NCBI RefSeq assembly: GCF_000522985.1
Contig: NZ_CP007130.1
Coordinates: forward strand, 372,001-436,000
Origin: Gemmatirosa kalamazoonensis
GTDB taxonomy: Bacteria > Gemmatimonadota > Gemmatimonadetes > Gemmatimonadales > Gemmatimonadaceae
Length of the DNA: 64,000 bases
Reading direction: 5' to 3'
Of this stretch, positions 28,979 through 41,011 are shown in pieces. Numbering within the stretch: the stretch's first letter is position 1; each line of letters opens with the position of its first letter. Both the position numbers and the translations under genes were made by a program. The notes below the pieces were generated by a model. It did no database searches and was not told the origin of the DNA. It worked only from the letters and a program-made list of their open reading frames with translations.

Positions 28979-29015
28979 CGACGCCCGGGACGCGATCTCC
29001 GCGTCCCGGGCGTCG
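28979..29015 (-). terminator. Strong hairpin downstream of the Exordium-like gene
   Basis: Perfect 16-bp arms CGACGCCCGGGACGCG (28979-28994) and its complement (29000-29015) flank a 5-base loop. It is located 33 bases past the stop of the leftward Exordium-like gene. On the minus strand it is followed by GGTCGTTATGTTAG, mildly T-rich for this genome, consistent with intrinsic termination. Confidence 0.65.
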
Positions 29016-39052: not shown

Positions 39053-39877
39053 ATGCGCACCCCGACACGCCGCTTCCACCTCGCCCGCACCGCATCCGTC
39101 TTCGCCGCCGCGGGGATCCTCGCCGCGTGCGCCGCCTCCGCCGACGCGAGCGCCCCGACCGATCCGCCGGGCGAGACGCCGCCGCCGACGACGTCGGGAC
39201 AGCCGAACCCGAGCAGCGGGATCGTGACCGGAACCATCGTCGACGCGGCGGGGCGCCCGCTCGCCGGCGTGCGCGTCGTCGCCGACAACACGCTGTTCTA
39301 CGACCCGAACGTGACCGGCACGACCGACGCGCAGGGCCGCTACAAGCTCGATCTCAGCCGGATCGCCGCGACGTGGCACATGACCGCGCAGGTCACGCGC
39401 ACGTACAACGGCCAGGAGTACGTGTTCGACCTGCACCCCGACACCGACGCGTCGTTCTCGGGGCTCGACGGCGCCGTGCGCAACTTCGACTGGCGGCTCA
39501 CCGGCAAGCGGCCGGAGCTCACCGACGGCTACTACGGCGGCACCGTCTACGCGCACATCGACATCTTCCACTGGCCCGACGGCGCCGACGCGCGCGACAT
39601 CGAGTTCACGTTCACGCCCATCGGACCGCTCGTCGACGGCAGCGCGGCGCGCCCGCTGACGCTGCGCGCGCCCGACGGCTCGCGGATCGCGGACGTGCCG
39701 GTCGGCAAGTACACCATCACCGCGCGGCTCGCGCCGCAGGGCAAGACCGCCCGTCCGCTCACGATCCGCCTCACGACCGGCGGCTCCTTCGCCGACGCCG
39801 TCACCGCCGTCTGGCCGCGCGACCTCACCGGCCGCACGGGCCCGATCGATCTGCAGGTCTCGGCGCCGGATCGGTGA
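39053..39877 (+). CDS. Lipoprotein with carboxypeptidase-regulatory-like domain
   Basis: A 274-residue protein. The lipoprotein signal is TASVFAAAGILAACAAS. After a Pro/Thr linker comes a carboxypeptidase regulatory-like (transthyretin-fold) domain: GIVTGTIVDAAGRPLAGVRV, then VTGTTDAQGRYKLDLSR and YVFDLHPDTDASFSG. A second beta domain (GGTVYAHIDIFHWPDGADAR onward) ends IDLQVSAPDR. Such domains bind carbohydrate or peptide or stabilise surface proteins. It lies upstream of the hairpin-rich region; one motif copy lies in its 5' region. Confidence 0.78.
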   Translation: MRTPTRRFHLARTASVFAAAGILAACAASADASAPTDPPGETPPPTTSGQPNPSSGIVTGTIVDAAGRPLAGVRVVADNTLFYDPNVTGTTDAQGRYKLDLSRIAATWHMTAQVTRTYNGQEYVFDLHPDTDASFSGLDGAVRNFDWRLTGKRPELTDGYYGGTVYAHIDIFHWPDGADARDIEFTFTPIGPLVDGSAARPLTLRAPDGSRIADVPVGKYTITARLAPQGKTARPLTIRLTTGGSFADAVTAVWPRDLTGRTGPIDLQVSAPDR

Positions 39878-39897
39878 TCGCGGAAAGGCGGCAGGAA

Positions 39898-39941
39898 AAT
39901 GGGGTCGGAGTCGATCGATCACGATCGACTCCGACCCCATT
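39898..39941. repeat. REP-like perfect hairpin
   Basis: Arms AATGGGGTCGGAGTCGATCG (39898-39917) and their exact complement (39922-39941) flank the loop ATCA. The GGGGTCGGAGTCG core resembles palindromes that accompany REP-associated (RAYT/IS200-type) transposases; that resemblance is from memory. It sits 21 bases after the preceding stop codon. Confidence 0.75.
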
Positions 39942-39994
39942 GCTGGCACTGGCGCTTCCCCCGGAATCGAACCACGGACGGCACGGAGGTGCTG

Positions 39995-40076
39995 GGCGAC
40001 TACTCTGGGGATCCGACGGCGATGAAAAGGATCTCGAGATCCTTTCGATCGCACGTGGATCCCCAGAGTACTCGCC
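39995..40076. repeat. Nested long inverted repeat
   Basis: The outer arms GGCGACTACTCTGGGGATCC (39995-40014) and the complement at 40057-40076 match at 19 of 20 positions. The centre is a perfect 20-bp palindrome, AAAGGATCTCGAGATCCTTT (40026-40045), with weaker pairing between. Total about 82 bp, non-coding and AT-richer than surroundings, resembling a small non-autonomous insertion element or cruciform-forming site. Confidence 0.75.
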
Positions 40077-40100
40077 TGTCACCTCGCCCCAGATGCAGAC

Positions 40101-40134
40101 GAGCGACGCCTCGCAAGCACGCGAAGCGTCGCTC
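40101..40134. terminator. Hairpin downstream of the PEP-CTERM gene
   Basis: The arms GAGCGACGCCTCGC and GCGAAGCGTCGCTC pair at 13 of 14 positions around a 6-base loop. It is 23 bases beyond the stop of the leftward PEP-CTERM gene and could terminate its transcript; no clear T-run is present. It may also be part of the same palindrome cluster as the two hairpins to its left. Confidence 0.5.
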
Positions 40135-40156: not shown

Positions 40157-41011
40157 TCAGACGCGGCGCCGACGCGCGACCGCGCCTAACGCGAGCAACC
40201 CCGTGCCGAGCAGCGCGATCGTCATCGGCTCCGGCGTCGTGGTGGAGGACGGGTCGACCTCGTAGTCGACGCGCTCGTCCTGCGCCCACGCCGGGCGCGC
40301 CTGCTGCGTGAGCACGCCCGCGTCGGCCGACCACGCGATGCCGTTCACCGTCGGGAAGAAGATCCGCGCCGTGTTCTGGAAGTCGGCCTCCCAGCCGGCG
40401 TCGGCGGCCACGGTGTACGACCAGTCGATGCGGAACGTCGTCGCGCCGCCGACGATCGCTGGACGCGGCAGCAGCAGCGCGTCCCACGCGTGCTGCGCCG
40501 GGGTCGCGTCGTCGCCGAACAGCCACAGGTCCACCGACGACACGAGCCGACCCGAGTTGATGTCCCACGCGCGGCCGATCACGTTCGCGTACGGCGTCCC
40601 GTCGGTCGAGCCGGGGATCGTCTGCCGGAAGATGCCGTCGAGGAAGAGCTGCATCGGCGCGACCGTCGCGGGACCGCCGGTGTTCGTCAGCGTCACGTGG
40701 TAGCCGAACGCGGCCGACGCCGTGGCGCTGTGCGTCGAGCCCGACGTCCCGGCGTACAGGTGCGCGGCGCCGCCCGCCACGTCGATCGCCGCCGCCGCCG
40801 ACGCGCCGGGCAGCGCCGCGTGCGTCGTGAGGCTCGCGGCGCCGAGCAGCGCCTGGAGATCCTGCGCGCCGGTCGCGGCGTCGACCACCTGGCCGCTCAC
40901 GTACGTCGTGGTCTGGGCGGCGGCGGGCACGGCGACGGCGCTCGCCGCGAGCAGGAAGCCCGCGACGCGGCAGGCGTGGACGGGGCGTGGAAGTGTCGTG
41001 CGGAACGTCAT
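40157..41011 (-). CDS. PEP-CTERM sorting-signal secreted protein
   Basis: A 284-residue protein with signal peptide (GFLLAASAVAVPAAAQ). The body is beta-rich with a C-terminal sorting signal: TTPEPMTIALLGTGLLALGA followed by VARRRRV, that is, PEP motif, membrane segment and basic tail. PEP-CTERM proteins are recognised by an exosortase/EpsH-type enzyme and are commonly linked to exopolysaccharide; no exosortase is in the window. GGAGACC precedes the ATG at 41011. One motif copy encodes Leu-Gly inside the sorting helix. Confidence 0.88.
   Translation of the reverse strand: MTFRTTLPRPVHACRVAGFLLAASAVAVPAAAQTTTYVSGQVVDAATGAQDLQALLGAASLTTHAALPGASAAAAIDVAGGAAHLYAGTSGSTHSATASAAFGYHVTLTNTGGPATVAPMQLFLDGIFRQTIPGSTDGTPYANVIGRAWDINSGRLVSSVDLWLFGDDATPAQHAWDALLLPRPAIVGGATTFRIDWSYTVAADAGWEADFQNTARIFFPTVNGIAWSADAGVLTQQARPAWAQDERVDYEVDPSSTTTPEPMTIALLGTGLLALGAVARRRRV

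Follow-up and report, generated by a model that had tools for sequence, protein, structure and literature searches.

At positions 39898-39941 of the window, i.e., the whole stretch of 64,000 nucleotides that was analysed, lies a perfect inverted repeat, AATGGGGTCGGAGTCGATCG-ATCA-CGATCGACTCCGACCCCATT, with 20-nt arms that are 100% complementary and 4 nt apart. The hairpin sits on the 1.04-Mb replicon, in the non-coding spacer of two convergent genes, and the stop codon of the upstream gene is located 20 bp ahead of it (Table 1). The RNA fold of 39880-39960 has an energy of -53.7 kcal/mol (z = -7.75), which none of 200 shuffled sequences equalled, and the hairpin is the longest perfect one of the window, its arms of 20 exceeding the maximum of 14 reached in 40 simulated order-2 Markov windows of 64 kb (perfect arms, loop 3-10). 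Sequence, fold and simulations thus confirm what the first-pass annotation had claimed about the structure, namely perfect 20-bp arms around a four-base loop in non-coding DNA. Rfam contains no family that matches the hairpin at gathering score, the only matches being sub-threshold ones to microRNA-type hairpins, and plasmid records gave no match to it. Two other GC-rich hairpins are found in the window, one with perfect 16-bp arms at 28979-29015 and one with 14-bp arms at 93% at 40101-40134, just past the 3' end of the PEP-CTERM gene.

Table 1. Features of the hairpin locus, hairpin copies in the genome and GxxExxY loci considered (positions refer to the window unless a contig is given)
Feature	Position	Strand	Remarks
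Left arm, AATGGGGTCGGAGTCGATCG	39898..39917	+	One TIR-like unit; core GGGGTCGGAGTC at 39901-39912
Loop, ATCA, 4 nt	39918..39921	none
Right arm	39922..39941	-	The unit in inverted orientation, without mismatch; its core at 39927-39938, - strand
Upstream gene, carboxypeptidase-regulatory-like domain (PF13620)	39053..39877	+	Context, outside the element
Convergent downstream gene, PEP-CTERM protein (TIGR02595)	40157..41011	-	Context only; 3' end faces the hairpin
Hairpin copy	C4:411898		The window copy; only one with perfect arms
Hairpin copy	C4:708233		Covariance model
Hairpin copy	C2:777350		Covariance model
Hairpin copy	C2:5162503		Covariance model
Hairpin copy	C2:172975		Covariance model
Hairpin copy	C2:1745368		Covariance model
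GxxExxY loci looked at			Flanks of L071, L073, L074, L077, L079; L156-L183; L222-L225

Hairpin copies in the genome

The genome was searched as four contigs with 7,479,215 bases, three of which comprise 5,311,527, 1,106,233 and 1,040,503 bases; the replicons published for Gemmatirosa kalamazoonensis KBS708 measure 5,312, 1,106, 1,041 and 21 kb (PMC3974934). The hairpin had been taken for a single copy, which the search of the whole genome disproved: a covariance model identified six copies, one perfect and five degenerate, on the chromosome and the 1.04-Mb replicon, a count that excludes one additional match with E = 0.2. Because the model was built from those six copies, independent support comes from the visible hairpins and from the exact 13-mer GGGGTCGGAGTCG, which occurs seven times in the genome as opposed to zero occurrences of the reversed control pattern. 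Five of the six copies lie outside coding sequence, three of these 6-20 bp past a stop codon, and the most degenerate copy lies within the 884-codon frame of a BTAD/TPR protein. Covariation among the copies is weak, with two of 17 pairs changed on both sides and 39 of 500 shuffles as good. The hairpin family in this genome is small and mostly decayed.

No Y1/REP transposase gene, which RAYT-driven mobility had called for, was detected here: the Pfam Y1_Tnp profile had no match in this genome and the Y1 transposase of a Gemmatimonadota relative retrieved no remnant (best E = 4.8), thus the six copies are orphans. The recent arrival proposed in the first-pass annotation did not gain support either, since no clean orthologous empty site for the hairpin was found among the genomes compared, though five homologues of the upstream gene are not followed by it. 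A paralogue 46 kb away offered a suggestive empty site (left, TGATNGCGG..AGGCGGC; right, GCTGGCGCTTC); 18 of 500 shuffles scored equally, therefore an empty site is not claimed.

Association of the arm core with Y1 transposases

Among 59 genomes, this one included alongside its relatives, Y1_Tnp is present in 22. In related Gemmatimonadota as well as in Proteobacteria, the arm core GGGGTC(A/G)GAGTC forms the repeat that flanks a defined group of RAYT-like Y1 transposases. GGGGTC-like repeats, mostly in inverted pairs, adjoin several long Y1 genes (about 240-290 aa) in genomes of the same taxonomic family as this one, L022-L025 and L033, and most Y1 genes from neighbouring families have no such repeats alongside. 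Hairpins of this kind occur at dispersed sites in the genomes G027 (e.g., AAATGGGGTCAGAGTCGAATTTC...GAAATTCGACTCTGACCCCATTT), G008, G011, G002, G005 and G029, and the dispersed CAAGGGGTCAGAGTCCTTGAA units of G008 are identical to the units beside its own Y1 gene. G002 and G005, both draft genomes, have hairpins and no detected Y1 gene. The cognate Y1 proteins carry long C-terminal extensions, and their one credible Pfam match is Y1_Tnp. Two of the Y1 proteins scored 74.5 and 71.7 with the NCBIfam REP-transposase model, just under its cut-off of 80, as is expected for relatives of classical RAYTs.

Beyond the relatives, 84,980 species genomes were scanned with the pattern TGGGGTCRGAGTCG-(2-32)-CGACTCYGACCCCA, which revealed 47 exact hairpin loci, mainly in Roseateles, Collimonas, Massilia, Pelomonas and other Proteobacteria, with many of them inside the genome of Collimonas humicola. 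Y1_Tnp is encoded in all 22 sampled genomes with an exact hairpin, a count that has no matched hairpin-free Proteobacteria as its background. The exact core was present in 13 of 30 fetched Y1 loci. Other loci, 234 kb in total, contained four cores, every one of which stems from the window hairpin, covered by two overlapping loci. In one locus of Alteromonadales alter-6D02 (L119), inverted cores flank the transposase gene on its two sides, at distances of about 10 and 75 bp, with a complete hairpin at a distance of about 1.1 kb. When the bases around the core were compared between hairpins and transposase flanks, they agreed better within genomes (0.75) than between genomes (0.64; permutation p = 0.002, 13 genomes). 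Pelomonas sp. UHG3 carries the GGGGTCGGAGTCGA variant of the window both in its hairpin and in the flanks of its own Y1 gene.

The neighbouring palindrome and GxxExxY genes

A 100-bp palindrome at 39986-40085, 45 bp downstream of the hairpin, is a member of a second, larger repeat family. This family has GTACYCTGGGGATCC arms at an exact spacing of 57 bp, and its members, at least 17 paired elements plus further single arms, are spread over the three large replicons. The palindrome contains four RGATCY sites, a sequence that a reported active methyltransferase of Gemmatirosa kalamazoonensis recognises (PMC3974934), and it matches both flanks of the GxxExxY gene L074, whose repeats belong to the same family. 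Yet another palindrome (GGGCAGGAGGGCAGGAGGGC...) follows the stop codon at 2248 of a homologue of the upstream gene (L218), thus spacers of this genome contain several unrelated palindrome families.

In this genome and in relatives, GxxExxY genes (TIGR04256/PF13366, PD-(D/E)XK-like) often have gene-specific palindromic or inverted repeats on both sides. Sequence common to both flanks was detected at 16 of 31 GxxExxY loci versus 3 of 45 control stretch pairs, and four of the six plasmid-borne GxxExxY genes examined had repeats on both sides (Bacteroides, Sphingomonas, Bernardetia and a Fusobacterium). On two of the plasmids the gene looks inserted between operon neighbours, fabD and fabG in Sphingomonas parapaucimobilis (L223) and radA and a gene for an FAD-dependent protein in Bacteroides finegoldii (L225), and in either case short inverted repeats mark its two ends. 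GxxExxY flanks are told apart from controls by the ungapped-palindrome score and by the shared-flank test; the folding-energy test disagrees, with no overall difference between GxxExxY flanks and far flanks (p = 0.38), and beside the GxxExxY genes of many relatives no strong palindrome was seen. The GxxExxY genes with their bracketing repeats look like an undescribed mobile arrangement, and no description of the association was found in the literature searched. We tentatively propose, at somewhat less than even odds, that the spacer holds two unrelated mobile palindromes, the TIRYT-type hairpin and a non-autonomous copy of an undescribed GxxExxY-enzyme element with gene-specific palindromic ends.

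Discussion

Y1 genes with flanking terminal inverted repeats of the consensus GGGGWSAS have been named TIRYT (PMC3733652); most TIRYTs were placed in subclass 2.1, and no REP-like sequences were seen beside that subclass (PMC6006769). The sequence GGGGTCAG, carried by many relatives and Proteobacteria, fits this consensus, and GGGGTCGG of the window is one base off; five of the six copies in this genome lack the A of GGGGWSAS and read GGGGTCGG or similar. Given the fit of GGGGTCAG and the sub-cut-off scores with the REP-transposase model, the hairpin is classed as a repeat doublet of the published TIR/TIRYT type, distinct from GTAG-type REPINs. The earlier suggestion of a RAYT-mobilised palindrome holds in so far as the arm core flanks RAYT-like Y1 genes elsewhere, and can be made more precise as to the repeat class, which is not that of the classical GTAG REPs. 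Since no credible Pfam match to a C-terminal HTH (Bac_DnaA_C, HTH_23, HTH_28), a trait of subclass 2.1, was obtained for the cognate Y1 proteins, we only infer that these transposases belong to subclass 2.1.

With the TIRs of TIRYTs (TIRtrons, PMC3733652; mostly TnpA-Y1 subclass 2.1 / RAYT group 1, PMC6006769) the hairpin shares the GGGGTC core, the inverted flanking of a long Y1/HUH gene, found in other genomes and not in this one, and the dispersal as single and dimeric copies (six dimeric ones here, over 20 in G027), whereas the lack of a transposase in this genome and the G for A at one position of the GGGGTCGG core set it apart. Gemmatimonadota are absent from the text of both TIRYT papers (PMC3733652, PMC6006769). 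As a short, inverted, intergenic and non-autonomous doublet, with a trans-acting Y1 transposase as its presumed mover, it is also similar to the REPINs (REP doublets) that accompany RAYTs in Pseudomonas (PMC3116915), but no GTAG or GTGG tetranucleotide stands at the foot of the hairpins, the copy number is low and the cognate RAYT is absent from this genome. The CGTC-tagged REPs (PMC3733652) are likewise palindromic repeats that have no dedicated transposase in their own genome; unlike them, the copies described here bear no CGTC tag and their cognate transposase is identifiable in other genomes. The exact core was not found described as a named bacterial repeat in the literature searched.

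The position between convergent 3' ends, 20 bp past a stop codon, and the very stable fold would suit an ordinary terminator or a 3'-end stabilising hairpin without any mobile origin. However, a terminator scan was negative, with no qualifying T-run on either strand: the stem is followed by GCTGG on the plus strand and by TTCCTG on the minus strand (four T in a row, counting the last two paired T), so the GC-rich stem is not continued by the immediate T run of an intrinsic terminator. The sequence recurs at five more sites of the genome and across phyla, and it is missing behind five homologues of the upstream gene, which indicates that it is not a conserved terminator. We consider an ordinary terminator or stabilising hairpin of non-mobile origin improbable, while a secondary role as a 3' hairpin, passively affecting the convergent transcripts at their 3' ends, is possible.

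Six similar dyad sites in one genome could also represent a regulator binding site that is kept as a regulon motif, but three of them lie just past genes and one within a coding frame, the arms, at 17-20 bp and with variable loops, would make an unusually long operator, and in other genomes transposase genes are bracketed by the core, which together leave this reading very improbable. Mobilisation by another enzyme of this genome, e.g., the GxxExxY proteins, is suggested by the several GxxExxY genes present and by the GxxExxY-type palindrome close to the hairpin. We regard it as the least probable of these alternatives, given that at none of the GxxExxY loci examined did a GGGGTC hairpin rank as the best adjacent palindrome and that G002 has hairpins but no PF13366 match.

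The explanation that we favour, with a probability of about 0.8, is that the hairpin is a non-autonomous mobile repeat, now probably immobile, which consists of two inverted TIRYT-type terminal repeats arranged as a REPIN-like doublet. From what is established for RAYTs and IS200/IS605, we infer that a Y1 transposase would act in trans on the GGGGTC(A/G)GAGTC ends when these are single-stranded (e.g., during replication), cutting and rejoining them, and that the 44-base doublet would then be excised or copied and inserted elsewhere, usually into intergenic DNA. The transposase gene would have resided formerly in the Gemmatirosa lineage and been lost later. As the enzyme is missing from this genome, present activity is unlikely, and the hairpin is now most likely a relic whose influence would at most extend to the 3' ends of both convergent transcripts.

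The hairpins with a shared core that are dispersed in Gemmatimonadota and Proteobacteria would tie such repeats to a transposase group for which a survey saw no REP-like partner (subclass 2.1, PMC6006769), and the orphan set in a closed genome allows the decay of the repeats without their enzyme to be traced. The GxxExxY association is possibly a more interesting lead than the hairpin. If true, it would represent a class of transposable palindromes that is not based on HUH transposases, and the palindromes, should they prove to be what they resemble, would offer a first clue to the function of a protein family that is widespread and has no known role.
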